Made by a program: the position numbers and the translations under genes. Below are positions 4,225 through 64,000 of a stretch of 64,000 nucleotides of DNA, one piece after another. The notes under the pieces are model-generated. The model worked only from the letters and a program-made list of their open reading frames with translations, made no database searches and was not told the DNA's origin. Within the stretch, counting starts at the first letter, position 1. Each line of letters starts with the position of its first letter. The DNA comes from Bacteroidia bacterium (lineage in GTDB: Bacteria; Bacteroidota; Ignavibacteria; SZUA-365), in contig JAOSJT010000001.1 of assembly GCA_027493955.1 (NCBI GenBank), forward strand, positions 387,131 through 451,130. Direction: 5' to 3'.

Positions 4225-4371
4225 ACAGTGCAGCGGCACACTTCGAAGTGCGCGCTGCGGAGGGGGGGGGCGCATCGGAGAATGCGGAATGCATCGACCC
4301 GCGTGTGCCCGGCAGACGGCTCGGGGCTGATCCCTATCCATAATTGTAATTCATCTTCAGTCCATTCCCTG

Positions 4372-4410
4372 AAAAAAAAACGGGCCGCAGCATTCTGCGT
4401 CCCGTTTTTC
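4372..4410 (-). terminator. ahcY/metK operon terminator
   Basis: On the minus strand a stem (acgggacgcag / ctgcggcccgt, one mismatch) is followed by nine T residues (the A-run at 4372-4380). It lies 22-60 nt after the ahcY stop and is repeated in decayed form near 1171 and 3195. Confidence 0.75.
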
Positions 4411-4431
4411 GAATCTGAAATATCCTCGCTG

Positions 4432-7259: not shown

Positions 7260-10200
7260 CTATCGCGAACCGGGACGCGATTCGTCCGGCGGAACGGGAC
7301 GCGGGACGGGACGCACAGGATTTTCCTGCAGTTCACGCAGCAACACTTCCACCGCCTTTTGCAGCGAGGGATCTATGCCGCGCGCGACGAGGTCCGGCCG
7401 GTCGATGACTTCTATGTCGGGCGACACGCCTTCGTTTTCTATCACCCAATTGCCTTCCGGGTCATAGAAGCGGAATGTGGGGACGCTGACGGAACCGCCA
7501 TCCACGAAATTCGGCTGTCCGGTGAGACCGATCAGCCCGCCCCAGGTGCGCGTGCCGATGAGTTGACCCAAACCGCGTTTCTTGAAATAGTACGGGAAGG
7601 CGTCGCCGCCGGAGGACGAATAGTGATTGATGAGACAGACCTTGGGTCCACGATGGAATACATCCGGCGCGGACATGGGCTCGATATTGCGGCGCGCCCA
7701 GTAGTTCAGTGCCTGGCGATCGAGGAGCTCGATCATGTTGTAGGGGATGAAGCCGCCTCCGTTGTACCTATCATCAAGTATCAGGGCCTGTTTGTTCGCC
7801 TGCGGATAGAACCATTTGAACAGTTCGCGATTCCCCTCCGCCGCGGTGTTCGGTATCCAGATGTACCCGATGCGGCCGCCCGAGGCGCTGTCCACCCAGG
7901 CCATATTGCGCTTCACCCAGTCGAGGAAGCGGACGTTGGTTTCGCTTTTTACGGGACGCACCATCACGTTCCGCGCTCCCTCCGGTGAGGGGCGGGTGTT
8001 CACGGTGACTTTCACGGTGCGTCCGTGTGTGTTCTCCAGAAAACGGAATGGATTATCCGGTACGACGATTTCCTTGTCGTCGACGGCGATGAGGTAGTCG
8101 CCGGCACGCACGTTGACGCCATGCTCTGTAAGAGGAGAGCGGAAGGCCTCGTGCCAGTTTTCCCCCTCGAAAACCTTGCCGATGCGGTAATAGCGATTTC
8201 CGGCATCCTCGAACTCGCAGCCGAGTAAGCCGCCTTCTATGCGCTTGACCCTGTGCTCGTCACCGGAATTCACATACGTGTGTCCGGCGTTCAGTTCGGA
8301 TATCATTTCCCCGATAATGAAGTCGAGGTCGGAGCGCCGGCCGAGTGCGGGTAACAGGGAGGCATATTTTCCGCGCAACGCGTCCCAGTCGTAGCCGTGC
8401 ATGGCGGGATCGTAGAACCAGTCCCGCATGATACGCCAGGCATCGGAAAACATCTGTCGCCACTCCAGCCGGGGATCGATGCGCATGTCCATGCGCGCGA
8501 GATTGAGGGCTCCATCTCCTTTTTTCTGACCGGCGCGCACCGCCACGATGCCCCAGCTGCCGCCGGCCGCGTAGAGTATGCTCTTGCCGTCACGAGACAA
8601 TTCGTAGCCTCCGATACCGTCGAAGACGGTTTCCTCTTTCTGTGCCGCAATGTCATAGCGCAACAGCGCGCGCTGGCCGTCCTTTATCCTGATGTACAGC
8701 ACGGCACCTTCGCCGGCTTCGAGACTGAAGTAGGTGGCGTCGCTGACGGGCAAGGCGACAACGCGATCGGCGAATCCCTCCGCACTGATGCGTACCTTCG
8801 GTGCGCGGGCGGTATCCGCGGATGCGGGGCCTCCTTCTTCGTCACTGCGCCAGGGACGGAACGCCGGGACCTCGGGATGCAACGCGGCGGCGTACACGCG
8901 TGTGGCGTTGGTGTAGAGATAGCGGAATTCGAAGGCGCTGAATGTCAGATTAAAGTCGCGGTTGGAGAGAAAGAACATGTATTTGCCGTCGCGCGAGAAT
9001 ACCGGATTGAAGTCATTGGACATTCCGGAGCTGAGCAGCAGCGGCGTATCCTTCTCCGTGTCGTACACCCAGATACCGTTGAGGTCGCTCGGTGCAACGT
9101 CGGTGTACACGAGCCAGCGGCTGTCGGGGGACCAACGGAAGTGCGTGATGTCGTATCGTCGGCCGCGCACAAGCTCGCGCACGGCACCCGTGGCTACGTC
9201 GGCGATGCAGAGGCCGCGCGCCTTGTCCGCGAAGGCGATACGCCGGCCGTCCGGCGACCATTGCACGGAAAATATCCAGCCGCGGGATCCGCTGGTGAGC
9301 TGCCGCGCAGGGGAGGTATTATCGGCGGGACGCAGCCATATTTCGTACTCACCGCTCTGATCGCTGACGTATGCTATCGTTTTTCCGTCGGGAGACCAGG
9401 ATGCGGCGCGCTCGCGCACTCCCTGCGTGCCGGTGAGATTGCGGATTTCGCCATGCTCGGCGGGGACGCTGAACAGATCGCCACGCGCCGCCATGATGAC
9501 GCGTTTGGCCGAAGGTGAGAGCGCGGTGCCCTCGATGAAATCACTGACGCTCCGGATGCCCGGCAGTGTCTCGCGGCCGTCGGCGCGCAGGCCGATACGG
9601 AGTTGCCGCGAACTTCCGCTGCGCGTTTCATATACATGAAGTTCGCCGCCGCATTCATAGATGATCGCGTCCGGACCGCTGCTCGGCCACAGTACGTCCC
9701 AGGTATCGTGTTGCGTCACTCTTCGCACGGTTTTTCCGTTCAGATCCATGGCAAAGAGATTGAGCGTGAATTCCCTGTCGGAGGTGAAATACAATGTATC
9801 GCCGATCCACATCGGCTGGTTGTCCGTCATGATGTGGTCGGTCAGGCGTTCGGCGGAAACCTTCTCAAGATCGAAGAGCCAGACGTCCTGCGCGCGTCCT
9901 CCGCGGGTACGTTTCCATGTGCGCCATTCGCGGGAAATAGGAGTGTACACCATGCGCTTGCCGTCCGGCCCAAATTCCCCCATGCCTCCCTCAGGGATGA
10001 TGAGCGGCGTTTCGAGTCCTCCGGAAAAGGGGATGGTGTAGAAACGGCTCAATCGTTCGTCCCAGGGCAGGCGGTTCGCACGGAACAGTATGCGCGTGCC
10101 GTCCGGCGTCCACCCCAGCACCTGATGATCGAAGCCACCACGCGGCGGCATTACACCCGCATCGTTGTACCAGGTCAGCTGCCGGGGCGTACCACCCTCG

Positions 10201-10526
10201 CTGGGCATGACGTATATCTGTCTGCTGCCGCTGTACTCGGCTGAAAACGCTATCCACTTTCCGTCGGGCGAAAATTTCGGGAAGAGCTCCTGTCCCTCAT
10301 GCGACGTGAGCTGCCGCGCTGTACCACCGTTTGCAGACACAGTGTAGATGTCGCCTGCGTGGACGAACACCACGGCGTCGCGGTGTATGTCGGGGAAGCG
10401 AAGAAGCCGCTTGCCATCGTTGTCGACATCGGCCCGCGTCGCGAGTGGCTGGGCGCCGGCGGCGGCGACGAAGAGCATAAGGAACATGATGAGGTGAGCC
10501 GGGGGAGACAGGTGCGATGGGGTCAT
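7260..10526 (-). CDS. Tricorn-like S41-family protease
   Basis: A secreted protein of about 1088 residues. Order: signal peptide (hydrophobic stretch ending AAAGAQ), two beta-propeller-like regions rich in 'SPDGKxIAF/WSPDGRRIAF' repeats (about residues 40-660), a helical domain (RDWFYDPAMHGYDW near 700), AGHTYVNSG with His749, a PDZ-like segment (VRAGDYLIAVDDKEI near 815), and the peptidase core with DDRYNGGG, the serine cluster in HYSSSGGDAF (Ser970-972) and ENEGVSPDIEV near 1030. This is the tricorn arrangement; such enzymes trim peptides. The ATG at 10524-10526 is preferred over the longer frame because it follows GAGGA and begins the signal peptide. Confidence 0.92.
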   Translation of the reverse strand: MTPSHLSPPAHLIMFLMLFVAAAGAQPLATRADVDNDGKRLLRFPDIHRDAVVFVHAGDIYTVSANGGTARQLTSHEGQELFPKFSPDGKWIAFSAEYSGSRQIYVMPSEGGTPRQLTWYNDAGVMPPRGGFDHQVLGWTPDGTRILFRANRLPWDERLSRFYTIPFSGGLETPLIIPEGGMGEFGPDGKRMVYTPISREWRTWKRTRGGRAQDVWLFDLEKVSAERLTDHIMTDNQPMWIGDTLYFTSDREFTLNLFAMDLNGKTVRRVTQHDTWDVLWPSSGPDAIIYECGGELHVYETRSGSSRQLRIGLRADGRETLPGIRSVSDFIEGTALSPSAKRVIMAARGDLFSVPAEHGEIRNLTGTQGVRERAASWSPDGKTIAYVSDQSGEYEIWLRPADNTSPARQLTSGSRGWIFSVQWSPDGRRIAFADKARGLCIADVATGAVRELVRGRRYDITHFRWSPDSRWLVYTDVAPSDLNGIWVYDTEKDTPLLLSSGMSNDFNPVFSRDGKYMFFLSNRDFNLTFSAFEFRYLYTNATRVYAAALHPEVPAFRPWRSDEEGGPASADTARAPKVRISAEGFADRVVALPVSDATYFSLEAGEGAVLYIRIKDGQRALLRYDIAAQKEETVFDGIGGYELSRDGKSILYAAGGSWGIVAVRAGQKKGDGALNLARMDMRIDPRLEWRQMFSDAWRIMRDWFYDPAMHGYDWDALRGKYASLLPALGRRSDLDFIIGEMISELNAGHTYVNSGDEHRVKRIEGGLLGCEFEDAGNRYYRIGKVFEGENWHEAFRSPLTEHGVNVRAGDYLIAVDDKEIVVPDNPFRFLENTHGRTVKVTVNTRPSPEGARNVMVRPVKSETNVRFLDWVKRNMAWVDSASGGRIGYIWIPNTAAEGNRELFKWFYPQANKQALILDDRYNGGGFIPYNMIELLDRQALNYWARRNIEPMSAPDVFHRGPKVCLINHYSSSGGDAFPYYFKKRGLGQLIGTRTWGGLIGLTGQPNFVDGGSVSVPTFRFYDPEGNWVIENEGVSPDIEVIDRPDLVARGIDPSLQKAVEVLLRELQENPVRPVPRPVPPDESRPGSR

Positions 10527-10660
10527 TGTGTATCCTCGTTGCGTTGGGGCAATCCTTGTGCTACGTGTTTTGAAAATAGGAGTTTCATTCGGGAATTCTG
10601 TTACCGGATTTGGCTCTGTGAGACAAAGGAGAACGCTGGTCCCGAACCGCACCCACGGGA

Positions 10661-10707
10661 GATTTCAATGCAGGAAAGATTTCAATGCAGCGGAGAATCC
10701 GTATATT
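10661..10707 (+). promoter_or_regulatory. Promoter with 13-bp direct repeats
   Basis: TATATT at 10702-10707 with a TTTCAA-like -35 at 10680-10685. The 13-mer gatttcaatgcag occurs twice, at 10661-10673 and 10678-10690, 17 nt apart and overlapping the -35 region, so a regulator could bind here. The start near 10714 supports the ATG at 10747 for the next gene. Confidence 0.45.
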
Positions 10708-10746
10708 GCACCGAATCGCATCACATTCACCATCGTCCCGCGCATC

Positions 10747-11151
10747 ATGCAAACGTTTGAACTCCTCGCCCTCGTCACCTTCCTCACATCCTATCTGCTG
10801 AGTGCTCTGCGCGCCATCGCCACACCGGAGCAGTATCGTGACAGGGAAATTGCATTCTACCGCAGCGGGAAGGTGGGCGTCTTCGAGCTCGTCTCCTTTC
10901 TGCTCACCGGACTCGCGCTGGGATTTCTCATCGTGCATTTTGTACTTGAGACTCCGAAAATCTCTCAGATACTGCTCTATGGCATGATCATCATCTTCGA
11001 CCTGATGATGCCCTTTCATTTCTTCCCGTTTTTCCGCGACCGCATGGTGAGTTCATTGAAGCAGAAAACTGCGGCGCAGTACCGCAGTTCCGGGCTGAAA
11101 CGCCTCGCCATCGCCGCGGTGATCATCCTGCTTCCGTTCATCTACCGCTGA
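10747..11151 (+). CDS. Small integral membrane protein of unknown function
   Basis: A 134-residue protein with about four hydrophobic helices (near residues 4-22, 45-65, 75-95 and 118-132). A charged loop, RAIATPEQYRDREIAFYRSGKVG, follows the first helix. No family was recognised. The start is set by the upstream TATATT box at 10702; a longer frame from 10528 would begin before the predicted transcript start. It is divergent from the tricorn-like protease gene, which starts at 10526. Confidence 0.6.
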   Translation: MQTFELLALVTFLTSYLLSALRAIATPEQYRDREIAFYRSGKVGVFELVSFLLTGLALGFLIVHFVLETPKISQILLYGMIIIFDLMMPFHFFPFFRDRMVSSLKQKTAAQYRSSGLKRLAIAAVIILLPFIYR

Positions 11152-48517: not shown

Positions 48518-49705
48518 GTGAGCGACACCGCCGCGTCTGCCCGAATTCTTGTGGTAGATGATGAACCCGATCTTGAATTACTCGTTCGCCAACGATTCCG
48601 GAAGAAAATCAGGGAGGGCGAATATGACTTTATGTTCGCCGCCAACGGCAAGGAGGCATTGGATCATGTGCTGACGCAGGCTCCGCTCGACGTCATACTC
48701 TGCGACATCAATATGCCTGTGATGGACGGTTTAACCTTCCTGAACAAACTCACGGAGCTGGAGCACGTCGACTTTCGGGCGGTCATTGTCTCCGCCTATG
48801 GCGATATGGAAAATATCCGCGTCGCAATGAATCGCGGCGCATTCGACTTCGTCACGAAGCCCATTGATTTTTCCGATCTCGAAGTCACCATAGAAAAAAC
48901 ACTCGGACACGTGCGCCAGCTCCGCGAAGCCAGATTGGCCCGCGAGCAATTGACCAAGCTCCATCGCGAACTCGAAGTCGCTCATCACATACAGCAGGCC
49001 ATCATCCCGCGGAAGTTCCCCGCATTTCCGGACAGACAGGAATTCGACATTTACGCCGAGATGCGGCCTGCACAGCATGTGGGTGGCGACTTCTACGATT
49101 TTTTTCTGTGCGGTGAGAATCAGCTCGGTGTCGCTATCGGGGACGTTTCGGGCAAGGGGGTGCCGGCCGCTCTGCTCATGACCGCATCCCGCGCCCTGTT
49201 GAAATCACTCGCCCTCCGCGGCTTACCGCCAGGCGAATGCCTGTCCCTGCTCAACGCCCATCTTTGCTCGGAAAATATCTCCTCAATGTTCGTTTCCCTG
49301 TTCTATGGCGTACTGGATTTTTCTACCGGCCGCTTTCAGTATGCGACCGCCGGACACCAACTCCCGTTCCGAATCGGGAGACATTCGTTCTCGCGTATGG
49401 AACGAACACACGGAATGGTGATCGGGGTGTTTGCGGCAGGGGAGTACGAGACGGGTGAGGTGACACTCGAATCGGGTGATCATCTTTTTCTCTACACGGA
49501 TGGAATAGACGAGGCATTCAACACCGGCGAGGAGGAGTACTCGGACGAGCGCCTGGAGCGTCTGCTTCGACAACCGGATCATGGTGGTGTGCAACAGCTC
49601 GTGAAAACGGTGATGGAAGACGTAGTGTTGCACGCCAATGGACGAGCCCAATCGGATGATATGACCATCCTCGCCCTCGAGTACCGGGGTGGAGTCCCGT
49701 CCTGA
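48518..49705 (+). CDS. Response regulator fused to PP2C/SpoIIE (RsbU-like) phosphatase
   Basis: A 395-residue protein. Residues 8-125 form a receiver domain: acidic pair DDE at 14-16, phosphoacceptor Asp63 (LCDINMP), switch SAYGD near 92 and TKPID near 113. A linker helix (about 126-165) leads to an SpoIIE-type PP2C phosphatase: GGDFYDFFLC, IGDVSGKGVPAALLM, YTDGIDEAFN and SDDMTILALEY hold the metal-binding acids. Such proteins dephosphorylate anti-anti-sigma (STAS) proteins when the receiver is phosphorylated. A STAS protein is encoded two genes downstream and histidine kinases are nearby. Start is GTG; the ribosome-binding site is weak. Confidence 0.92.
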   Translation: MSDTAASARILVVDDEPDLELLVRQRFRKKIREGEYDFMFAANGKEALDHVLTQAPLDVILCDINMPVMDGLTFLNKLTELEHVDFRAVIVSAYGDMENIRVAMNRGAFDFVTKPIDFSDLEVTIEKTLGHVRQLREARLAREQLTKLHRELEVAHHIQQAIIPRKFPAFPDRQEFDIYAEMRPAQHVGGDFYDFFLCGENQLGVAIGDVSGKGVPAALLMTASRALLKSLALRGLPPGECLSLLNAHLCSENISSMFVSLFYGVLDFSTGRFQYATAGHQLPFRIGRHSFSRMERTHGMVIGVFAAGEYETGEVTLESGDHLFLYTDGIDEAFNTGEEEYSDERLERLLRQPDHGGVQQLVKTVMEDVVLHANGRAQSDDMTILALEYRGGVPS

Positions 49706-49751
49706 AATAGCGAATGAATTCATAAAACATCAACTCTCCGGAGGACCTGGT

Positions 49752-50765
49752 ATGAAAACCACACGTACGCAGTTTTTTCAGCATGTGCCCGCCATGCTTG
49801 TTCTCGCGATGGCATTGTTTCTCCTTTCGTGTCAGGGGAAAAAGGAGGAAAGCACTGATGGTGGCAAGGTCTGGAAGATCACGATGATCAAGTACGAGGA
49901 TCTTCAGCAAACTGAAGAAGCCGAACGTGGTTTTCGAGACGGGCTTACGGATGCCGGTCTGAAGGACGGCTACGATTACACCATCGAATCCCGCAGCGCA
50001 CAGGGAGATATTCCGACGGTCATCGCGATGTTGGATGCTGCCGCGGCGGACGGTACGAACATGCTCGTCTCGCTTCAGACCCCGACGCTGCATTCCGCTG
50101 TGCAACGTGGCGTCGGAATTCCTCTGGTGTTCATGGTGGTCGCGAATCCTTTCGTGATCACGAATGTGGGAAAGAGTGATAGTTCACACTTGCCATTTCT
50201 CACGGGTGTGTACACGAACACGACGTTTAAAACCATGCTTCAGCATATCAAGGCATGCATACCAAATGTCAATAAAATCGGGACGCTGTATTCCTCCTCG
50301 GAATTGAATGCGATGTTCTATCGCAGCCAGTTACAGAACGCCGGCGCGGCAGAGGGCTTGAGTGTGGAGACCGTTGGCGTTGTGTCCAAAGAGAGTGTGG
50401 GAGCGATGACCGAGCTGCTGATTTCATCCGGTATCCAGGCGATTTGTCAGATTGAGGACAATCTTACGAGTGCCGCGTTTCCTGGCCTTATCAAAGCCGC
50501 TGCCGCAGCGAAAATCCCCGTCTTCGCCTTTGTCAACAAGCAGGCGGAACAGGGCGCTGTTTTGACGCTTGCCCCGGATTATATCGTCGGTGCGAAGCAG
50601 GCGGCGCGTCAGGCCGCGCAAATCATTCGGGGAGAAAGCCCGGCAAAGATCCCTTTCCAGCGTATCACGAAATTCGATCTTATCGCAAACAAGAAGGCAG
50701 CCCAGGCCGCCGGACTCACACTACCCGCAAGCGTACTTGCTCGTGCGGATAGAGTGATAGAGTGA
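49752..50765 (+). CDS. ABC transporter substrate-binding lipoprotein (ABC_sub_bind/TrpX type)
   Basis: A 337-residue lipoprotein: signal with lipobox LLSC (Cys near residue 27), then a two-lobed periplasmic-binding fold: ITMIKYEDLQQTEEAERGFRDGL, AAADGTNMLVSLQTPTLHSAV, PLVFMVVANPFV, NKIGTLYSSSELNAMFYR, and IPVFAFVNKQAEQGAVLTLAPDYIVGAKQAARQAAQII. This is the DUF534/ABC_sub_bind family, in which TrpX of Firmicutes binds tryptophan; the ligand here is unknown. ATG 49752 follows GGAGG. It lies between the phosphatase and STAS genes and upstream of the permease and ATPase, so it feeds that transporter. Confidence 0.9.
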   Translation: MKTTRTQFFQHVPAMLVLAMALFLLSCQGKKEESTDGGKVWKITMIKYEDLQQTEEAERGFRDGLTDAGLKDGYDYTIESRSAQGDIPTVIAMLDAAAADGTNMLVSLQTPTLHSAVQRGVGIPLVFMVVANPFVITNVGKSDSSHLPFLTGVYTNTTFKTMLQHIKACIPNVNKIGTLYSSSELNAMFYRSQLQNAGAAEGLSVETVGVVSKESVGAMTELLISSGIQAICQIEDNLTSAAFPGLIKAAAAAKIPVFAFVNKQAEQGAVLTLAPDYIVGAKQAARQAAQIIRGESPAKIPFQRITKFDLIANKKAAQAAGLTLPASVLARADRVIE

Positions 50766-50815
50766 CACCACAACCACCGTGGGAATAGCGCCGGCCGTGT
50801 GCCGGTCGATGGTAT

Positions 50816-52024
50816 ATGGATATACAACGAAAGTCCACAGGCAAGGCCACGTTGCTGGAAGTCAGCGGCAAACTGGATGCATATTGGTCCGGTGCCTTGA
50901 GCCAGGAGATTGAGGCCTGTGTGCACGGAGGGTCGAGCGAGATCGTTCTCGATCTGGCCGGGGTGGATTTTATCAGTTCCGCGGGGTTGCGCGTGCTCCT
51001 CATCTGGCTCAAACAGATGAAAGCCATCAATGGCAATTTCCGTATTGTCCGTCCTTCTGCCGAGGTCGTGAGTATCCTGGACATGTCCGGCCTTTCAGAG
51101 CTGCTTCTGACAGCAGCGGGTGAGGGAGAAAGCGGACAGATCACTCCGGAGTCGCCATTCGCCGGGGGACGCGGCAGGTATGCGGTCGTTCCATTGGCTG
51201 AGGTTCCGGAAGGCGCTCTGGATGTTGTCACCCCGCCGTCAGCTTCGCCGAACGATGGATCTTTTCCCCTTGTGCGTTATTCCGCCAAACGAATAGGTAT
51301 CGGAATTGGTGCTTTCGGTGATCTGCGGAGTGGAAGCGCCTCCCGATTCGGGGAGTTCCTATCCACGTCCGGAATAACCGTCTGCTTACCCACCGACGGA
51401 CGAGGCCATCCGGACTATATGACAGAAGATGGTGCCTTCGTACCCACCATTTCCACCTATTCTGGTATTTCATCCGATGCGGATTACACGCAGATGGTGT
51501 TGTTCGAGGCCGCCGATGCCGGCAGTGGTATCCCTCTCTCCGCGCTGGCACAGCTTGCAATACAGACTTCCGGGGCCGAATCGGCGATGCTCCTGATTAT
51601 CGCGGAAGCCGCTTTTCTGATCGGTGCCGCGACAAAAACATCCCCCGTGAATGCAAAGGATTTGTTTTCATTCCCCGGCGTACGTGAGAGCATGTATTTC
51701 ACGGCCGAACCTTCATCAGAGAATACCATCGCCGTGGTCTGCGGGCTCGTATCAACGCGTGCATTTCCTTACGTCAGACCGATGACCGGTCAGTCCGGCA
51801 TTTATGGACATTTCCATGCCATATCCTTTTCACGCCGGCCGTTGCCTTCCGGAATATTCGATCCGAAAGCGTTGGTACGCAAACTGTTTGATGAGGAGCG
51901 CATACAGGCGCTTCTGCACCTTCTGACGGATGATCGCCAAACCTCTGCGGTCGTCGAAAGTGAGTTCACGCGCGGCAGCGTGTGGATGCATCCGGTTCAG
52001 ACAAGCGGAGGGGGTGGAGCATGA
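50816..52024 (+). CDS. STAS-domain protein with unknown C-terminal domain
   Basis: A 402-residue protein. Residues 1-100 are a STAS (anti-anti-sigma-like) domain: EVSGKLDAYWSGAL, LDLAGVDFISSAGLRVLLIWLKQM, with the usual regulatory serine position at Ser54/Ser55, and FRIVRPSAEVVSILDMSGL. The remaining roughly 280 residues (from about GRYAVVPLAEVPEGALD) form a second domain not recognised, with YSAKRIGIGIGAFGDLRSG and QTSGAESAMLLIIAEAAFLIG. The upstream REC-PP2C protein could remove phosphate from the STAS serine. The gene overlaps the permease gene by 4 nt, tying this switch to the transporter. Confidence 0.8.
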   Translation: MDIQRKSTGKATLLEVSGKLDAYWSGALSQEIEACVHGGSSEIVLDLAGVDFISSAGLRVLLIWLKQMKAINGNFRIVRPSAEVVSILDMSGLSELLLTAAGEGESGQITPESPFAGGRGRYAVVPLAEVPEGALDVVTPPSASPNDGSFPLVRYSAKRIGIGIGAFGDLRSGSASRFGEFLSTSGITVCLPTDGRGHPDYMTEDGAFVPTISTYSGISSDADYTQMVLFEAADAGSGIPLSALAQLAIQTSGAESAMLLIIAEAAFLIGAATKTSPVNAKDLFSFPGVRESMYFTAEPSSENTIAVVCGLVSTRAFPYVRPMTGQSGIYGHFHAISFSRRPLPSGIFDPKALVRKLFDEERIQALLHLLTDDRQTSAVVESEFTRGSVWMHPVQTSGGGGA

Positions 52025-52968
52025 TCAGTGTGATCATCGGAGGGCTGCTGATCGGTTTCATTCTGACGCCCCTGGCGTTGGGGGTGTTCATCAGCTATCG
52101 CATGCTGCGATTTCCCGACCTCACTGTGGATGGTGCTTTTGCCTGCGGTGCCGTGGTATCCGCACGGATGGTATTGTATGGCTGGGACCCTTTGAGCGCG
52201 ACGCTTCTGGGGATGTGTGGTGGAGCGGTCGCCGGATTGCTGACCGGCCTGCTGGCAACACGTTTCGGCATCCGCCGTCTGCTCGCAGGCATCCTCGTCA
52301 TGACGGCGTTGTACAGCGTGAATCTGTACATCCTCGGGAAACCATCGCATGCCTTCAATGAGGAAATAACCCTGTATAACTGGGCGCGGGAGGTCGCGGT
52401 GTGGTTCTTCGGTCCTGAACCATCGGTCATTCTCCTTGGGTCGAGGATATTCACCGTGAAACTGGTCAGTCTGGTCTTTGCCGGCTGTACTTCCGTTCTG
52501 ATCGTGGCAGGCTTGTACTGGTTGTTCAAAACGCAGTATGGTCTTGCAATGCGCGCAGCTGGTGACAATCCCGAGGCAGCCGCGGCGATGGGAGTGAATG
52601 TTGAACGCATGGTCATCATCGCCCTGGCTTTGGCAAACGCTCTTGCCGCGCTGTCGGGAAGTATTTTCGCGCAGGAACTCGGATCAGCCGGATTCGACCT
52701 CGGCCTCGGGATGATTGTGACCGGACTTGCCTGTGTCATCGTGGGAGGCGCGCTGTTTCGAAGGAGTCGCTTCAGCATGCAGCTTGTGGCCACCGTTATC
52801 GGTACGCTGCTCTATCGGCTGATCATCTCCCTCTTGCTGCTCGCGGGCGTTGTCAGTACGGATTTGCGACTGTTCACCGCAGTCTTTGTTTTACTCGCAC
52901 TCCTTGTACCTTCGGCGTTGGATCGCTGGCTGCGCCAAGGCCAGGTGCCGGTGAAGGGGGTGCAGTGA
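52021..52968 (+). CDS. ABC transporter permease (branched-chain/TrpY type)
   Basis: A 315-residue membrane protein with about eight helices of the BPD_transp_2 group: FPDLTVDGAFACGAVVSARM near residue 36, the conserved MRAAGDNPEAAAAMGVNVERM near residue 180, which is the EAA-like loop contacting the ATPase, and GLGMIVTGLACVIVGGAL. Permeases partnered with ABC_sub_bind lipoproteins (TrpY) belong to this group. It starts within the STAS gene's last codons and its stop overlaps the ATPase start. Confidence 0.92.
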   Translation: MISVIIGGLLIGFILTPLALGVFISYRMLRFPDLTVDGAFACGAVVSARMVLYGWDPLSATLLGMCGGAVAGLLTGLLATRFGIRRLLAGILVMTALYSVNLYILGKPSHAFNEEITLYNWAREVAVWFFGPEPSVILLGSRIFTVKLVSLVFAGCTSVLIVAGLYWLFKTQYGLAMRAAGDNPEAAAAMGVNVERMVIIALALANALAALSGSIFAQELGSAGFDLGLGMIVTGLACVIVGGALFRRSRFSMQLVATVIGTLLYRLIISLLLLAGVVSTDLRLFTAVFVLLALLVPSALDRWLRQGQVPVKGVQ

Positions 52969-53780
52969 TGCTCGTGCTGCGCGCGCTTACCAAGGTGTTT
53001 AGCACCGATGCCGGCGACAGAATAGCAGCGCTGGATGGTATCGATCTCACGGTGCCCACGGGGCAGTTCCTTGTCATCGTGGGCACTAACGGTTCAGGAA
53101 AAACAACGCTGATGAACGTGATAGCGGGATCGGAGCACTGTGATGCCGGATCCATAGTTCTGGACGACCACAACATCACCGAGCTTACCGGGTATCGTCG
53201 CGCGGCGATGATTGGACGGGTGTTCCAGGATCCGATGCGTGGTACCATACCCGAATTGACCGTCGTGGAAAATCTCGCTCTCGCCGCAAGTAAGACCGTA
53301 CCCCGCGGATTCAGGATCGCCGTCGGGAGGCAGTTCCGCGAGGAATGTCACCGCAAACTATCCGCGCTGGGGATCGGTTTGGAGTCAAGATTGCAGCAAC
53401 GTGTTTCGACCATGTCCGGTGGACAACGACAGGTGTTGAGTCTTGTCATGGCCGCCTGGCACCGTCCCGCGCTGTTGCTGCTGGATGAACATACGGCGGC
53501 GCTCGATCCGAAAAGTGCCGATCTCGTTCTGAAGATGACGCAAAGCATTATCAGCAGGGAAAAAGTCACGGCCATCATGGTGACACACTCGATGCAACAG
53601 GCCGCGCGTATGGGCGACCGGTTGATCGTGATGCATCGCGGTAGCATCGTCCGCGACATCTCCGGAACAGAGAAGCGCTTGCTGCGTTCACCGGAGTTGC
53701 TCGAAGAATTCGAAGCGCTGAGAAGCAGCGATCTGATTGATGAGAGTGTCTCGGGATTGTTACGGAGGCAGTATATCTGA
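52968..53780 (+). CDS. ABC transporter ATPase
   Basis: A 270-residue ATPase: Walker A GTNGSGKTTL near residue 39, Q-loop FQDPMRG near 86, signature MSGGQRQVLSLVMA near 149, Walker B LLLLDEHTAALDP near 168 and H-loop VTHSMQQA near 205. It energises the permease encoded just upstream (TGATG overlap). An extra GTG 3 nt earlier is also possible. In TrpZ-like systems it works with a TrpX-like lipoprotein and TrpY-like permease, matching this operon. Confidence 0.95.
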   Translation: MLVLRALTKVFSTDAGDRIAALDGIDLTVPTGQFLVIVGTNGSGKTTLMNVIAGSEHCDAGSIVLDDHNITELTGYRRAAMIGRVFQDPMRGTIPELTVVENLALAASKTVPRGFRIAVGRQFREECHRKLSALGIGLESRLQQRVSTMSGGQRQVLSLVMAAWHRPALLLLDEHTAALDPKSADLVLKMTQSIISREKVTAIMVTHSMQQAARMGDRLIVMHRGSIVRDISGTEKRLLRSPELLEEFEALRSSDLIDESVSGLLRRQYI

Positions 53781-53883: not shown

Positions 53884-54816
53884 ATGAAAAGATACCATAC
53901 TCGATATGTACGCAGACGAAAGAAAGCCGATGTGCATGCCACACCGGGGAGCGGAGAACGCCTGGAAACGCTGCAAGCGGACTGTGCCCATCTCCGCCTG
54001 GTGGTCGAGTCGCTGCAGATGAAACTCATCTCCACCGATGCGCTCGCCGCGCTTGGGCAACTTACCGCCGGAATCGCGCATGAAATCCGCAATCCGATAA
54101 ACTTCGTGAACAACTTCGCCGAAGGACTCGTCGACCTGGCAGGGGAATTGCGGGAAGAAATTGAGGGCATGAGCGTGGCGGCTGACGCCTCCCGTGCAGC
54201 TGTGTCGCTGCTCCTCGAAGAGATGATAACGAGCGCGCAGAAAATTCGTGAACACGGCGGCCGGGTCGAGAGCATTGTTCGGAGCATGCTTCTGCAGGCA
54301 CGTGGCCAACAGGGGGTGAAGGAGCAGGTGGAGCTCAATGCGTTTCTGGAACAGTACGTTTCGCTCGCCTTCCATGGGATGCGTGCTCAGGTGCAGGATT
54401 TTTCCGTGCGCATCGAGCGATCCTATGATCCCCATGTGGGCTCGATTTCCCTGTCCCGACAGGGGATGGCGCGTGTCTTTATCAACCTGCTGAACAACGC
54501 GTTTCAGGCGGTGGAGGAAAAGAAAAAAACGGCGGGAGAAGCCTACGAACCTGTGGTACGTGTAGGGACGCTGAAAACGGAGAACGGGTGCTCGATCAGC
54601 ATCGAAGACAATGGCCCCGGTGTTCCCCTGCATCTCCGCGAGAAAATTTTTGAACCGTTCTTCTCCACGAAAGATGCCGCCTCCGGCACCGGTCTCGGCC
54701 TCCCGTTGAGCCACACGATCATTGTGGATGATCACAACGGTGCCCTCACCTGCGAGGAGTCGCGTTTCGGCGGCGCGTTGTTCCGTGTAGCGCTTCCGGA
54801 TGACGGGCGGGAATGA
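53884..54816 (+). CDS. Soluble histidine kinase
   Basis: A 310-residue cytosolic kinase without membrane helix or sensor domain. A basic start (MKRYHTRYVRRRKKAD) and a short coil (LETLQADCAHLRLVVESLQMKL) precede the H-box LTAGIAHEIRNPINFVNNF with His66. The catalytic part has N-box FINLLNNAFQAV, G1 EDNGPGVP, F-box IFEPFFSTK and G2 GTGLGLPLSHTI. It lies 103 nt after the ABC ATPase gene on the same strand; with no own sensor, it likely takes its signal from a partner and may phosphorylate the REC-PP2C protein. The convergent TPR kinase shares its H-box type. Confidence 0.92.
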   Translation: MKRYHTRYVRRRKKADVHATPGSGERLETLQADCAHLRLVVESLQMKLISTDALAALGQLTAGIAHEIRNPINFVNNFAEGLVDLAGELREEIEGMSVAADASRAAVSLLLEEMITSAQKIREHGGRVESIVRSMLLQARGQQGVKEQVELNAFLEQYVSLAFHGMRAQVQDFSVRIERSYDPHVGSISLSRQGMARVFINLLNNAFQAVEEKKKTAGEAYEPVVRVGTLKTENGCSISIEDNGPGVPLHLREKIFEPFFSTKDAASGTGLGLPLSHTIIVDDHNGALTCEESRFGGALFRVALPDDGRE

Positions 54817-54842: not shown

Positions 54843-56783
54843 TCAACTCAGCTTCACTTCATCAAGTACCGGCAACAGGATGATGAATTCCGTGAATTCA
54901 TCATCGCGGGATTCGACTTCAATTCGCCCGCCATGCTTTTGAACGATGATGTCGTAACTGATGGACAGGCCCAGACCCGTGCCTTTCCCGCTGTCCTTCG
55001 TCGTAAAGAAGGGATCAAAGATGCGCTTCTTAACATGCTCGGGAATACCGGGACCGTTATCTCTGATGCGGATTTCAATGTCTTTGTTCTTCACGGCGCT
55101 GGCAATTTGGATGACCGGCTGATAGTCCGCATCGTGCAGGCTGCGTTCGCAGACCGCGTCCAGCGCGTTGTTGAGAATGTTGACGAACACTCTGCTCACA
55201 TCCTGTGGCACGATGTTGATGACGGGGAGTGCGGGGTCGAGCAGGAGGTCCATGCGTGGTTTGCATAACGCACCTTCCGATCGCACGCCATGAGCCGCCA
55301 GTCGAGAGGCGTCGGTGAGGAGTGTGTTGACATTGGCGTATTGACGCGTTTCCGACGAAGACCGTGCATGCATCATCATGCTGCGCACGATTCCATCCGC
55401 GCGTGCTCCATGTTCATGTATTTTGCTGACGCTTTGACGCAGATCAGCCATGATCGCCTTTTTCTCCTCCACATTATCCGAGCTCTGATCCAATTCATCG
55501 AGCAACTCGATGGAGCCCTGTGCGAAATTGTTGATGAAATTCAGCGGGTTCTGGATTTCGTGTGCAATACCTGCCGTCAGTTGTCCCAATGAGGCGAGTT
55601 TCTCCTGGACGACCAGTTGGTTCTGCATCGCGCGAAGTTGTTCATTGATGCGGGTCTTCGACTTATTTGCCGCATAGAGGAAGAACGAGAAGACGAGGAC
55701 AAGCAAAAAGGCAACGGAGGCGCCGATGGCGATCATGCGTTCCAAGCGGCGGGTTTGCTCGAGGAGCTCGTTGCGTTCCTTCTGGAAATCCACCTCATGT
55801 TTCAGATCATTGAGCCGGAGATCCTTCGCTTTGGCATCACTGAGAACACTGTCCTTCATCATGGCGAAGAGAGTGTGGGCCTTATAGGCCTGCTCGTAGT
55901 TTCCCAAGCTCGCGTAGGTCAGCGCAATTTCCTGATAGGTCTCTTCGATTTGCTTAAGATCGTGTACCTCCTTATTGAGTTCCAGTGCCTCGCTCAGGTA
56001 CTCGATCGCGTCCAGGTAGCGGCCGGTTTTTCGATGGATCGAACCGACACTGAAAAGAGAATTTGCCGTCCTTCGCTTATCGTGATGCTTGCGTCGGATG
56101 TCGAGGGCCTTCTGATACCAGTCGAGTGCTTCCGTGTACTCGCCACGCTCATCGTAGAGATACCCCAGGTTGTAGTATGCGATCGAAACGCTGAGCTCGT
56201 CGTTCAGCTTTTTGAAGAGGTCGACAACTGTTTGCAGATTGACGAGTGCGTTTTCCCAATCCCGGAGTTCGATGTAAATCATACCGAGGTTCAACCGGGG
56301 GTTTGCGATCTGGAACGGATCCGTCGGCTTCTGTGCCAACGCCGAAAGAAACATATCACGCGCTTCTTCACTGTTTCCCAGTTCTCGACGGACGAGACCG
56401 ATATTCGTGTACATCGCAGCCAGGCCATTGACATCTTTCAGTTCCTCGAAGATTTTCAATGCCTTCCAGGCGGGATCAACTGAGCCGGGATAATCACCGA
56501 TCACGGTGTGGATAACGTGGATGTTACGCAACGCCCATGCCTGCCCCTCCCGATACTGTGCGTCAACAGCCATGGAGTACGCCTCCTTGGCAATCTTCAT
56601 GGCCTCCATCGGTTCAACATGCCGAAGTTCCCAGGCGAGATCATTCATCGTCTGAACCCGCATCGTCGGATCGGTATACGTATCAATCCTCGCCCGGATG
56701 CTGTCAATTGATCGTGGCTGTGCCTGAACGGAGAGGAGTCCGATAAGCAGACAGATCACGAGGATTCCAATTGTCTTCGTCAT
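54843..56783 (-). CDS. TPR-containing sensor histidine kinase (COG4191-type)
   Basis: A 646-residue kinase: signal peptide (residues 1-21), six or so TPR repeats (about 60-340, for example SIAYYNLGYLYDERGEYTEALDWYQKALDI), coiled coil, one membrane helix (MIAIGASVAFLLVLVFSFFLYA near 355), a coil, then H-box LTAGIAHEIQNPLNFINNF with His408, N-box FVNILNNALDAV, G1 RDNGPGIP, F-box IFDPFFTTK and G2 GKGTGLGLSISYDI. The H-box is nearly the same as that of the soluble kinase at 53884, with which it is convergent at 26 nt, so the two probably serve the same pathway. Confidence 0.92.
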   Translation of the reverse strand: MTKTIGILVICLLIGLLSVQAQPRSIDSIRARIDTYTDPTMRVQTMNDLAWELRHVEPMEAMKIAKEAYSMAVDAQYREGQAWALRNIHVIHTVIGDYPGSVDPAWKALKIFEELKDVNGLAAMYTNIGLVRRELGNSEEARDMFLSALAQKPTDPFQIANPRLNLGMIYIELRDWENALVNLQTVVDLFKKLNDELSVSIAYYNLGYLYDERGEYTEALDWYQKALDIRRKHHDKRRTANSLFSVGSIHRKTGRYLDAIEYLSEALELNKEVHDLKQIEETYQEIALTYASLGNYEQAYKAHTLFAMMKDSVLSDAKAKDLRLNDLKHEVDFQKERNELLEQTRRLERMIAIGASVAFLLVLVFSFFLYAANKSKTRINEQLRAMQNQLVVQEKLASLGQLTAGIAHEIQNPLNFINNFAQGSIELLDELDQSSDNVEEKKAIMADLRQSVSKIHEHGARADGIVRSMMMHARSSSETRQYANVNTLLTDASRLAAHGVRSEGALCKPRMDLLLDPALPVINIVPQDVSRVFVNILNNALDAVCERSLHDADYQPVIQIASAVKNKDIEIRIRDNGPGIPEHVKKRIFDPFFTTKDSGKGTGLGLSISYDIIVQKHGGRIEVESRDDEFTEFIILLPVLDEVKLS

Positions 56784-57259: not shown

Positions 57260-57673
57260 ATGCTTCAACATCGTTTTCCGCTGCTTTTTATCGCTGTTCT
57301 GCTTTTCGCAGCCGGCTGTAAGTCGGTCCCTGACACGGAAATGCTCACCACCACAAAGAGATTGTATTTTCGGTGGGAGCCCAATGCGTCCGTTCCTGGA
57401 GGAGGAATTATCGTCGGCAATGATCGCGGTGAAGGCAGCAACGGTAGAATTACCGTCGAGATCCCGATTCCCGAGCCCGGTAGCACGGGTGATATTGAAC
57501 TGACGCACGAGAATCTTATGCATATGACCATCACGATAACGACAGATGAAGGTGAGACAATGTCGTTCGATGATTCTCATATCGCGACTGCGACGTATCA
57601 GTTCACCTTCACTCATACGTTCGACGATGGCAGTAGCGCAAACGTGGTGGTGAGCCACCAAATGCCGGAATAG
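57260..57673 (+). CDS. Small lipoprotein, GEGS family member 1
   Basis: A 137-residue lipoprotein with lipobox LFAAGC (Cys near residue 20). The mature part is beta-rich: KRLYFRWEPNASVPGGGIIVG, GEGSNGRITVEIPIPEPG and MTITITTDEGETMSF, closing with FTHTFDDGSSANVVVSH. It is a paralogue of the proteins at 57948 and 59677, sharing the GEGSxGxITV motif and spacing. No known family was recognised. Start follows AGGAG. The longer in-frame ORF from 57119 lacks an export signal. Confidence 0.75.
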   Translation: MLQHRFPLLFIAVLLFAAGCKSVPDTEMLTTTKRLYFRWEPNASVPGGGIIVGNDRGEGSNGRITVEIPIPEPGSTGDIELTHENLMHMTITITTDEGETMSFDDSHIATATYQFTFTHTFDDGSSANVVVSHQMPE

Positions 57674-57709
57674 CAAGTTCGCCATCGCCGCTTTTGAATT
57701 GAAACGGGT

Positions 57710-57743
57710 ACCCGCGACGGAGCTGTCGCGTCGCGGGTGCTGT
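57710..57743 (+). terminator. Terminator after GEGS gene 1
   Basis: Stem acccgcga (57710-57717) with tcgcgggt (57731-57738), followed by gctgttt. A moderate rho-independent terminator. Confidence 0.55.
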
Positions 57744-57947
57744 TTGTAGCCCTGAAGTCTCGGCGACAACACCAGGCTCATGGTATGGACGGAGATATTC
57801 TCTCGGCTGCGAAACAAAGGCCGTCCTCGAAATCACCGTCTACACCGGTCCGCTTGACCAGCGTGTTTTTCCCTGGACCATACTTCGATATGTCCGCGCA
57901 AACGGCGCCGGACAGAGTGATACCACATACATATCCAGGAGGTATTT

Positions 57948-58280
57948 ATGGTGCTCAACGCAAGCGAATTCACCTTTGAGATCAGCGGATGCTGGCAAAT
58001 CTCTCCCTTCGATCCCAATGTGAAGGTGATCGTGGTTCGGGGTGAAGGCAGCAACGGTGTGATTACTGTGAGCGTCCCTCATCCGACCAGTCCAATTCCG
58101 GATCCTCAGGAGCTGTCTGTACAAAACATCAGCAACTTCGATCTCATCGTGCATACCTCGCCTACCACGGCTACGCATTACGACATGTCCTCGCTTGAAA
58201 CCGACAAGTTCCTGGTGTTGTTCTCTCTCACCTGGCCGGCCGGCGAAGTAGTCAACTACCGTATCCGTGTGAACTGCTGA
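57948..58280 (+). CDS. Small protein, GEGS family member 2 (no export signal)
   Basis: A 110-residue protein: FTFEISGCWQISPFDPNVKVIVV, then RGEGSNGVITVSVPHPTSP and LFSLTWPAGEVVNYRIRV. The order and spacing match GEGS members 1 and 3, but the N-terminal signal is missing. A perfect AGGAGG (57937-57942) stands 5 nt before the ATG and no in-frame signal sequence is seen upstream, so the protein is probably cytosolic or exported by another route. Function unknown. Confidence 0.75.
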   Translation: MVLNASEFTFEISGCWQISPFDPNVKVIVVRGEGSNGVITVSVPHPTSPIPDPQELSVQNISNFDLIVHTSPTTATHYDMSSLETDKFLVLFSLTWPAGEVVNYRIRVNC

Positions 58281-58379
58281 GAGCTTCCTCGAAGCACACT
58301 GCGCACCCGTCTGCGGACCCCGGGGTCCCTTCCGGTGCGATCGAAAGATTGCCGACTTTGCTGCGGATATACTGCTCCG

Positions 58380-58430
58380 GCGATGGGGGATGGACCCGAA
58401 ATCCATTCCCCATCGCTGTTTGTTTCTCTT
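58380..58430 (+). terminator. Terminator after GEGS gene 2
   Basis: A long hairpin: 58380-58394 pairs with 58402-58416 over 15 bp with one wobble, loop cccgaaa, followed by TGTTTGTTTCTCTT. The rest of the 58281-58684 gap shows no gene, apart from a 14-bp palindrome ggaccccggggtcc at 58315-58328. Confidence 0.7.
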
Positions 58431-58684
58431 CCTTACCCCAAGGACGAGCAGGCGGATTACCAGTTGAGTTTTCATACAGAAAAACTGCGAGCGCTTGCAA
58501 CGCAGCAATCCTCTCCGTATATTTCCTTGTTCGTTTACACTCAATACCCACCCGACTCCTTGCATGCCGTTACCCTCCGGCATACAGCATCGCCAGTCGT
58601 CGGTGCTCTCATCACGCTGTAAGCCACATTGGTTGAACAGGCACACCGTAGCACCTTGAAGTACACAATCTGGACCTCTATTTC

Positions 58685-59620
58685 ATGGTTGCCAAGCTCA
58701 GTGTCTATATGTTGATGTGCATGTGCCTGTGGACGAGGGCATATGCCCAGGTCGTGACGTCAAACAATGGGTACAATCCACCCCCGTTCACCTACTCGAT
58801 AGTACCTTCCTTCGATCTGACCGCGAACACGACTGTTTCGAAAACCAGAGAAATATACAATCTGCAGCTCGGTGGCAAATTCAAGGCGGATTTATCATAC
58901 AATGTTGGCCGAGTCAATATCCGAACCCTTATCGATGCGCGCCTGGCCCAGAAGGTAAACTCCGACCGTATTCCGGAGCGTACCGATGACGATTTTGTGA
59001 TGTCGGTGATCCCTTCCTTTCGTCTGTATGCGGACCGAATTCTGACGCTTGCGCTGGACATGACGATGCAGACACAGATGACCAATACCGTGGTGGACGA
59101 GAATTACAGCAAGAGGTTTTTGGATCCCGTGTTTTTCTACCAGACGCTGTATCTGGGCCATCAGTACGAGTGGAAATCGCAGGACAAGAAGGATTATTTC
59201 CTCTTCCGCCACGGACTGGGGTATGCCTTGCAGCAGACCTCCTATTCGCGATTTGTCCTTACCTCCGACCGCCTGGGCGACAGAATCGGCTCGCAAAATC
59301 CCCTGACGGAAATCCAACGCAAGGGGGGGCTCAAGTTGGAATCGGGTGTCAGTTATCTTGCGGGACTGGACTACCGAAGCGATCTGGCGGATGACCTGAA
59401 ATTTCGATTCGAGAGTTTCGGTGTGATGCTCTCCAAAACGGGATTCATCGGGGATCCCGCTGAATCCCGGGCGTACTTTAAAGTCAATCCCTCACTCACC
59501 TATAAGAATTACCTGAAACTCGAGTACCGCCTTGTAACGACCTACGACAAGAATTACTCCAAGCGGCGAAAGCTCATTCAGGAACTTACTATCGGCCTCA
59601 CCTATGACTTGCATAATTAA
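58685..59620 (+). CDS. Outer-membrane beta-barrel-like protein in GEGS cluster
   Basis: A 311-residue exported protein with signal peptide (ending TRAYAQ) and a mature part of long amphipathic strands: IVPSFDLTANTTVSKTREIY, FKADLSYNVGRVNIRTLIDARL, LFRHGLGYALQQTSY and FKVNPSLTYKNYLKLEYRLV, ending ELTIGLTYDLHN, a terminal strand typical of barrels. It resembles DUF3078-like proteins of Bacteroidota but the match is not certain. It lies between GEGS members 2 and 3 on the same strand, so it may be their outer-membrane partner. The ribosome-binding site is weak and the start is uncertain by a few codons. Confidence 0.7.
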   Translation: MVAKLSVYMLMCMCLWTRAYAQVVTSNNGYNPPPFTYSIVPSFDLTANTTVSKTREIYNLQLGGKFKADLSYNVGRVNIRTLIDARLAQKVNSDRIPERTDDDFVMSVIPSFRLYADRILTLALDMTMQTQMTNTVVDENYSKRFLDPVFFYQTLYLGHQYEWKSQDKKDYFLFRHGLGYALQQTSYSRFVLTSDRLGDRIGSQNPLTEIQRKGGLKLESGVSYLAGLDYRSDLADDLKFRFESFGVMLSKTGFIGDPAESRAYFKVNPSLTYKNYLKLEYRLVTTYDKNYSKRRKLIQELTIGLTYDLHN

Positions 59621-59676
59621 CCCGGCATGAAAGTACTGTGCCGCACATATTTCCGCTAATCAAGAGGAGTTCGTAC

Positions 59677-60087
59677 ATGACAAAATCCATTCAGCTCTTG
59701 CTGATCGCCGTGGCACTCGTTGCGGTGTTCACCGACTTCGGTAACGCACTGCGTACAAAGGCCAATGTTGAAGTTCAATTCAACGCGACGTGGACCCCTG
59801 ATCCGACTCTGCCCAACGGCGGTGTGATCATCGGTCGCGGAGAGGGCAGCAGCGGTGTCATTACCGTGGATATCCCGCCACTCACCTCCGTGCCCGAGAC
59901 CCCGGTGCAACTGACCTGGGAGAGCGTGACCTCCATGGACATCACCGTGATCAACGAGAACGGAGTGCAAATGCATTTCGGAAACCGCGCAATCAAGCCC
60001 TCGGCATATCTCATCGAATTCACCCATGACTGGGGGAATGATGTTGTCGTGAGCTACCAGCTGCGCAACAACTACGAAGGGAACTAA
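59677..60087 (+). CDS. Small secreted protein, GEGS family member 3
   Basis: A 136-residue protein with a Sec signal (IQLLLIAVALVAVFTDFGNA) and a mature part VQFNATWTPDPTLPNGGVIIG, RGEGSSGVITVDIPPLTS and MDITVINENGVQMHFGN, ending EFTHDWGNDVVVSYQLRN. It is the closest match to GEGS member 1 over its whole length. Start follows AAGAGGAG. It lies 56 nt after the barrel gene and is followed by a strong terminator. Unknown function; the fold is probably a single beta sandwich. Confidence 0.75.
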   Translation: MTKSIQLLLIAVALVAVFTDFGNALRTKANVEVQFNATWTPDPTLPNGGVIIGRGEGSSGVITVDIPPLTSVPETPVQLTWESVTSMDITVINENGVQMHFGNRAIKPSAYLIEFTHDWGNDVVVSYQLRNNYEGN

Positions 60088-60122
60088 CGGACGCTCCCGT
60101 CCGCGAGCCCTGGACGAAACAG

Positions 60123-60162
60123 TGCACGGTGCATCCAGTATGCACCGTGCATCATTATTTCC
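60123..60162 (+). terminator. Strong terminator after GEGS gene 3
   Basis: A perfect 12-bp stem, tgcacggtgcat (60123-60134) with atgcaccgtgca (60140-60151), loop ccagt, followed by tcattattt. It closes the barrel-GEGS3 unit. Confidence 0.75.
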
Positions 60163-60342
60163 GGGGCAACAGATCAGATATGTTCGAGCTATCGGTAGCC
60201 CGTATCAGCTGTCGTGCGCCACGTGTTGCTACTCCGTTGACGCGCAGAACAACGGCGTGGGTTGCGTGAACAGTCATGCTTCGGTAGCTTTGCTTCAGGA
60301 CTACGACGGTCCTGTCACGCAACTATACTGAGGCCAGCACCC

Positions 60343-62940: not shown

Positions 62941-64000
62941 TTAACGTGCCACCAGTATATGACGTTGCAGCGTCTGTCCGCCTTCGCTGAGACGGATGAG
63001 ATACGGTCCGTTTGCCAGTCGGGAGACAGGGATGTTGAGGTTCGAAGTTCCGGCAGATATCTGCGTCGGAGGATGTGCATACACGCATCTGCCCAGCATA
63101 TCGAACACGTCCAGACGCAGCAGTCCTGGTTTGCCGCTGCCGACCTCGATCTGCACCACCTGGTCAGCCGGTTGCGGATGTATACTCCGCATAGTGACAT
63201 CCGGTGTATGCACAGCTTCCACAGCCAGAGGCCGAAGATGTGCCATACCCGCGTTCAGGACCTCGCGGTCAGTTACATCTTCGCTGTGCGTGGTAATGAA
63301 TGCCACGACGCTCAGATTCTCCTCTATACCCTCGGCATCGTAGTCGAAGTGGTAGAGCGCCTCCCATTCGGAGGATGCCGCCGGGGCATCGGGCAGAATG
63401 CTCTCATCGCCCCAACTCCCCGTCGCGGACGCACGCAGTACGTGCCGATGCTCGAAATCAGGAACGGGATTGGGGAGGGAATAGAAGGGATGGTTTCGGT
63501 ATGTCGTATTTCCGCTGAAATAATTTGCCTGGTTCCATCCGCTGCCACTCCCCGTGAGTTTGTCGTGAACCAACCAGCAATGCACACGGTAATCCGCGGG
63601 AGGAGCATAATCACTGAACGTCAGAACCACTCTGGCAGTGATTCTTTTCCTCGCTGCGTCGTAGCTGCTCGTCACATTCACCGACAGGGGAGTGTAGGTC
63701 TGGCGTCGGTCTCCGGTGCGAAGCACCCAGGCTTCATTGCCCCGCGAAATCGCTACTCCTTTCTCACCTTCGAATTTTACCCGATCGATCATGGCTGTCG
63801 GATACGCAGGTGTGAATGCCTGCGCTATGGCCGATCCGGCGGGAATGATCATCGCATCGTTGCCACCCGCATGAATGGCGACCGCGATGGCGTCGGGATA
63901 CGCATCGCGAACACGTTCAACTTGCAGCATGCCGTCCGGGCACCAGCCGCACCATGCACCGGTGAATTCCTCGACAAGCACACGCTTCGGAGAAGTGATA
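62941..64000 (-). CDS. Omp28-like thioredoxin-fold protein with T9SS sorting tail (partial)
   Basis: The gene runs off the right edge; 353 residues are visible. The first visible residues (ITSPKRVLVEEFTGAWCGWCPDG) hold a CGWC redox-type motif in the 'VLVEEFTGxxCxxCP' form of Omp28-related proteins, followed by GGNDAMIIPAGSAIAQAF and YPTAMIDR with the cis-proline position. A middle beta-rich part leads to a C-terminal type-A sorting tail (HPQPADQVVQIEVG, LDVFDMLGRCVYA, LANGPYLIRLSEGGQTLQRHILVAR). The signal peptide is outside the window. It is probably secreted by T9SS and kept at the surface. Confidence 0.85.
   Translation of the reverse strand, partial: ITSPKRVLVEEFTGAWCGWCPDGMLQVERVRDAYPDAIAVAIHAGGNDAMIIPAGSAIAQAFTPAYPTAMIDRVKFEGEKGVAISRGNEAWVLRTGDRRQTYTPLSVNVTSSYDAARKRITARVVLTFSDYAPPADYRVHCWLVHDKLTGSGSGWNQANYFSGNTTYRNHPFYSLPNPVPDFEHRHVLRASATGSWGDESILPDAPAASSEWEALYHFDYDAEGIEENLSVVAFITTHSEDVTDREVLNAGMAHLRPLAVEAVHTPDVTMRSIHPQPADQVVQIEVGSGKPGLLRLDVFDMLGRCVYAHPPTQISAGTSNLNIPVSRLANGPYLIRLSEGGQTLQRHILVAR

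Follow-up and report, generated by a model that had tools for sequence, protein, structure and literature searches.

A small-protein family from one Bacteroidota lineage encoded beside a predicted outer-membrane barrel and a divergent sensor kinase

Introduction

Among the known systems nearest to the locus reported here is the Fap system of Pseudomonas, in which FapF, a 12-stranded barrel whose defining features are an N-terminal trimeric coiled coil and a helical plug, exports the amyloid subunit FapC (PMC5557850). A second point of reference is the family DUF3078 (PF11276), for which we found one passing mention in the literature. Orphan proteins that are small and secreted are found often but can seldom be interpreted. 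In the present case, the surrounding genes link an orphan family with a particular outer-membrane barrel and with a sensor kinase.

We analyzed a 64,000-nucleotide stretch of DNA (the window) that encodes a predicted 12-stranded outer-membrane barrel, P0003 (58685 to 59620, plus strand), and three small proteins, P0001, P0002, and P0004. The layout is like that of Fap in that a 12-stranded barrel is encoded with small Sec-exported proteins, and the P0003 model has FapF among its best Foldseek matches; this match is not evidence of kinship, because many unrelated barrels match too. Unlike FapF, the P0003 model lacks both the N-terminal coiled coil and the plug helix, with no helix between residue 22 and strand 1. 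The small protein is without amyloid-type repeats, and no C39-type protease was noted among the genes examined. The resemblance to Fap is one of layout only.

Results

The three small genes, all on the plus strand, encode P0001 (57260 to 57673; 137 amino acids), P0002 (57948 to 58280; 110 amino acids), and P0004 (59677 to 60087; 136 amino acids, starting at ATG 59677 rather than GTG 59638). BLASTP gave E = 3e-20 for P0001 versus P0004, 2e-17 for P0002 versus P0004, and 4e-10 for the remaining pair, and the motif R-G-E-G-S-x-G-x-I-T-V is invariant across the three (here the GEGS family). On these alignments their shared ancestry is not in doubt, which bears out the kinship proposed in a preliminary description of this DNA. 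A later strand, M-x-ITxxxxxG, that the same description had assigned to all three does not extend to P0002, which reads F-D-L-I-V instead. A search of the whole 5.24-Mb genome, a complete single contig, found no fourth copy. The differing cellular addresses proposed for the three proteins agree with their leaders, which were judged by reading the sequences: P0001 has a lipoprotein-like leader ending in FAAGC, which resembles a lipobox, P0004 has a Sec-type leader, and P0002 has no hydrophobic N-terminus, its open frame reaching just a few codons further upstream.

The suggestion that the family is an unfamiliar one held up in every search made. Neither Pfam nor NCBIfam profiles matched the GEGS proteins over their cut-offs, a PDB sequence search returned no match, and no viral contig with the family was found. 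An AF2 model of mature P0004, built from 10 sequences (pLDDT 81.1, pTM 0.69), is almost all beta, with its longest strands at residues 5 to 17, 26 to 42, 60 to 68, 87 to 96, and 99 to 107. Foldseek comparison of this model gave no significant PDB match (best E, 0.77) and none in BFVD; given the shallow GEGS alignment, this lack of a match argues only weakly for a new fold. Profile matches to HSP20, YPDG, and Amphi-Trp were far below cut-off or insignificant and were rejected. Kinship with Hcp or tail-tube proteins was likewise set aside, the fold matches to gpV and VgrG being weak (E of about 1), with no Pfam match and no Hcp in the genome, as was a phage origin, given the viral contig result, PHROG matches at noise level, and the absence of a BFVD fold match. 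No adhesin or pilin domain was matched by profile, nor such a fold significantly in PDB. By these comparisons, GEGS appears to be a family without a known Pfam, NCBIfam, or PDB counterpart.

The barrel was described earlier as lying between the small genes, and the AF2 model of P0003 (pLDDT 73.5), encoded between P0002 and P0004, accords with this: a signal helix at residues 3 to 22 is followed by 12 strands, the first from residue 35. Many barrels matched at significant E values, including the EstA and EspP autotransporters, FapF, and the COG4313 channel 4rl8, which points to a barrel without fixing its function. The 4rl8 channel gave the best TM-scores among the matches listed (0.46/0.51), but with an rmsd of 8 Å, about 10% identity, and no sequence-profile match, and the likeness is a generic barrel resemblance. 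P0003 is weakly similar to DUF3078 by profile, yet its 22.3 bits lie under the curated cut-off of 25; a clear DUF3078 member is encoded elsewhere in the genome (1227407 to 1227679, 75 bits).

Each small gene had been credited with its own ribosome-binding site and terminator. The former is correct, with AGGAG-type sites upstream of all three (AGGAGG for P0002); the latter applies clearly to P0002, which is followed by a terminator-like hairpin at 58378 to 58418 on the plus strand (17 pairs, then TTTGTTTCTC), while the hairpins 3′ of P0001 and P0004 have poor T-tracts. Terminator-like sites numbered 6, against 3.0 ± 2.0 in shuffled sequences, and a promoter scan gave a count not above shuffles. 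No ribosome site was seen before the barrel ATG. The barrel and P0004 are probably on one transcript, because their genes are 56 bp apart without an intervening terminator. A single sub-threshold Rfam miRNA match at a hairpin at 60106 to 60168 was taken as chance.

We searched for GEGS proteins in 61 relatives, 391 genomes of the class, and 395 genomes of the phylum (the samples overlap) and found them confined to the GTDB family of the window genome (f1), which includes MAG SZUA-365, itself a carrier. A published figure legend lists the SZUA-365 lineage as a separate Bacteroidota class (PMC8655204). The carriers are the window genome and seven relatives, each of the seven with a single copy. 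In the phylum sample the window genome was the only carrier, and the three genomes matched by a motif scan of the GTDB contig collection were all among the known carriers. Weak matches in three further genomes (G345, G119, and G066) were discarded after their frames were read.

In six relatives with an intact locus, the small gene starts 42 to 57 bp 3′ of the barrel, its product carries a Sec-type signal, and a TPR sensor kinase diverges on the other side of the barrel; in the seventh relative, G010, a contig end cuts the locus at the small gene. The association of small protein and barrel that had been noted from a single locus is thus real and conserved, the pair being kept in the same order in all six. 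The order and the 42-to-57-bp spacing persist even where barrels share only about 35% identity, and genes 3′ of the small gene vary (a HerA-like gene in the window, a DinB-like one in L034 and apparently also in three other g4 loci).

The corresponding kinase in the window (54843 to 56783, minus strand; Pfam TPR, HisKA, and HATPase_c) diverges from the barrel unit. A full-length ortholog (E < 1e-160) occurs in exactly the same 8 of 12 family genomes as GEGS, and G005 and G002 each have an additional full-length kinase of similar score. The other four genomes (G001, G004, G007, and G009) lack the kinase ortholog, the barrel, and the small gene, their best kinase matches being confined to the kinase domain at E = 3e-73 or weaker. 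Among the eight GEGS genomes, the barrel is missing in G010 alone, the genome whose contig stops at the small gene. This 8-versus-4 pattern does not represent eight independent events, since linked genes tend toward joint loss, and two of the genomes compared are incomplete drafts. The kinase, barrel, and small gene nevertheless seem to be gained or lost together as a unit, because G007 and G009 belong to the same genus as two carriers. From the arrangement in relatives and the joint presence of kinase and GEGS, we infer an ancestral unit in which the kinase diverges from a barrel-small protein pair. A second histidine kinase (53884 to 54816, plus strand; HisKA and HATPase_c) converges on the TPR kinase in the window and also in L033, and in L031 does so with 5 kb between them; its membership in the barrel unit is uncertain.

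Sequence and position single out P0004 as the ortholog of the relatives' single copy. It has the highest identity to the relatives of the three proteins (38 to 45% over the mature part) and, at 56 bp 3′ of the barrel, occupies the same place as the single copy in the six relatives. P0001 and P0002 sit in the gap between kinase and barrel, which is 1.9 kb here versus about 0.3 kb in relatives, none of which has GEGS copies there. Both are strongly diverged extra copies seen in the window genome only, with tree branches of 1.3 (P0001) and 4.0 (P0002, the most diverged) versus a median of 0.26; the forks of this tree are unsupported. Duplication in the lineage of the window genome is the simplest reading of their origin. 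In GC3, P0002 fits the genes around it and P0001 falls slightly below them (0.58 versus 0.59 to 0.68). P0002 could be decaying. Since the relatives' one GEGS protein adjoins the barrel at every intact locus, these patterns suggest that the small protein is a dedicated partner of the barrel, copied twice in the window genome.

The barrel family extends beyond GEGS and was found in 34 of the 391 class genomes, a few of them on short, weak matches, across families f1, f8, f11, f12, f14, f17, and f21. Small secreted proteins beside the barrel number five in one f21 genome (G383), four in another (G307), and three in G304 and G264; there are two or three in each of the f11 genomes G186 and G229. 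In f17 (G127), three near-identical tandem small secreted genes lie 3′ of the barrel and two others 5′. The three proteins encoded in tandem 3′ of the barrel at f17 locus L133 (5771 to 6945) are 85 to 88% identical, and this triplet is a recent local expansion. The neighbors of f12 barrels are unrelated, and none is small and secreted. Within f1, G002 carries an additional barrel, and after it comes an unrelated 146-amino-acid protein with a signal-like N-terminus, of which no clear relative was found in other genomes of the family; the two genes occupy L055:3422-3859 and 4002-4919, with another TPR kinase nearby (8109 to 11123).

By a single automatic rule, with barrel loci counted one per genus or paralogue, a same-strand small secreted neighbor was present at 9 of 20 barrel loci; the figures for comparison were 14 of 217 for background genes (Fisher p = 1.3e-5) and 3 of 28 for secreted genes comparable in size (p = 0.009). 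These values come from crude gene calling, with a hydrophobicity score in place of a signal-peptide predictor, and from a rule that overlooked the true neighbor in several f1 loci; the enrichment was tested after the pattern had been noticed, and the genera are not independent. The barrel family recurs beside small secreted proteins, a lead with support rather than proof.

Some of these barrel-adjacent proteins are beta-sandwich-like, and several have matches to prealbumin-like or Ig-like profiles, most of which score under the cut-off; matches over cut-off are CarboxypepD_reg at L134 (47 bits) and Kre9_KNH at L131 (34 bits). The CarboxypepD_reg-like proteins of f11, f17, and f21 are like GEGS in being small, secreted, often in tandem, and beside the same barrel family. 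A kinship between GEGS and the f11 and f21 proteins with a "GEPVPGAEI" stretch, proposed from a by-eye alignment, was rejected: comparison of GEGS with CarboxypepD_reg-like and prealbumin-like domains gave no Pfam match and hhalign E values of 0.096 to 0.34, with power limited by shallow alignments. The two f21 small-protein families, by contrast, share clear homology (hhalign E = 1e-24).

The tandem proteins of f21 (L134:2736-3260, L136:7939-10865, L137:7994-10380, L139:2965-4749, and L140:5068-6861) carry short stretches that match Hcp, the type VI tube protein, after the CarboxypepD_reg-like domain; that of L134 matches TIGR03344 at E = 4e-10 and scores over cut-off with Pfam T6SS_HCP. One f21 protein has a stretch of phage tail-tube type (TIGR02241, E = 0.007), and two of the tandem proteins contain HEAAHVVQQ or HEAAHVIQQ, recognized by eye. 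In all four genomes of the f21 genus g138, the gene immediately 3′ of the barrel encodes a product with a signal-like N-terminus (L136:5707-6885, L137:5762-6940, L139:730-1902, and L140:7907-9094); the L136 copy, the one scanned, matches C1-type cysteine peptidases.

Discussion

We tentatively propose, with a probability of roughly 45%, that the barrel serves as a fixed port or platform, with the GEGS protein as its exchangeable exported partner and the kinase probably linked to both. P0003 would form the fixed structure in the outer membrane, and Sec-exported P0004 would, judging from gene context, work with it there, presumably in physical contact. The barrel may carry the small protein to the cell surface or hold it there, the outward direction of transport being presumed, and the divergent TPR kinase is probably functionally linked to the pair and may regulate it. 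P0001 would then be a diverged copy with a lipid anchor, and the leaderless P0002 either cytoplasmic or decaying. The small protein is perhaps cargo that the barrel displays: cargo or displayed subunits would fit better than a fixed plug, because elsewhere many small proteins of unrelated families accompany one barrel. The f12 barrels, with no small secreted neighbor, indicate that the barrel can work alone. Against an exported partner stand the missing leader of P0002, the absence from the barrel of the FapF coiled coil and plug helix, and the lack of detectable homology between GEGS and the barrel-adjacent small proteins elsewhere.

The Sec leader and the position of the small gene immediately downstream of the barrel would also suit a periplasmic accessory that gates or plugs the barrel or delivers its ligand, is never surface exposed, and exists in extra copies as dosage or ligand-specificity variants. 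The GEGSNGVITVDLPMPPP stretch, highly conserved in relatives, has the look of a surface for binding or contact, and a TPR-repeat sensor kinase diverges next door; up to five tandem small proteins per barrel elsewhere are unexpected for a stoichiometric gate, and we regard this account as rather unlikely. It is more doubtful still that the small proteins act on their own as secreted proteins and lie near the barrel through inheritance of gene order, with no functional link. Such a view draws on the restriction of every GEGS case to one taxonomic family, on the fast evolution of P0001 and P0002 and the leaderless state of the latter, and on f12 barrels that manage without a small secreted neighbor. 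However, the order and tight spacing are kept despite diverged barrels and changed downstream genes, the kinase, barrel, and small gene share one pattern of presence and absence, and the barrel family repeatedly adjoins small secreted proteins in other families. The earlier idea of a single surface complex or adhesive made of the three small proteins and the barrel accords with export leaders on two of the three, the adjacent barrel, and tandem copies that resemble subunit sets. A single copy suffices in relatives, no adhesin or pilin fold was matched, and a simple three-subunit complex is disfavored because only P0004 is a conserved partner and P0002 has no export signal; we consider it highly improbable.

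If the exported-partner reading is extended across the barrel family, the loci could represent an undescribed display or secretion system of the Bacteroidota outer membrane, in which one barrel family serves exchangeable, unrelated small cargo in each lineage: GEGS in f1, and in other families CarboxypepD_reg-like proteins, of which some have Hcp-like stretches. We hold this broader proposal to be speculative and, on present evidence, unlikely. Were barrels of this family to export or display their partners, they would constitute an unrecognized Bacteroidota route for presenting variable small proteins at the surface.

Two further parts of the window lie outside the GEGS-barrel finding. Genes for a response regulator with a SpoIIE phosphatase domain, an ABC substrate-binding protein (PF04392), a permease, and an ATPase stand in a row at 48518 to 53780 and are probably one transport and signaling operon. 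At 62941 to 63981, an Omp28-like protein carries a T9SS C-terminal sorting domain, which suggests that the organism has a type IX secretion system.
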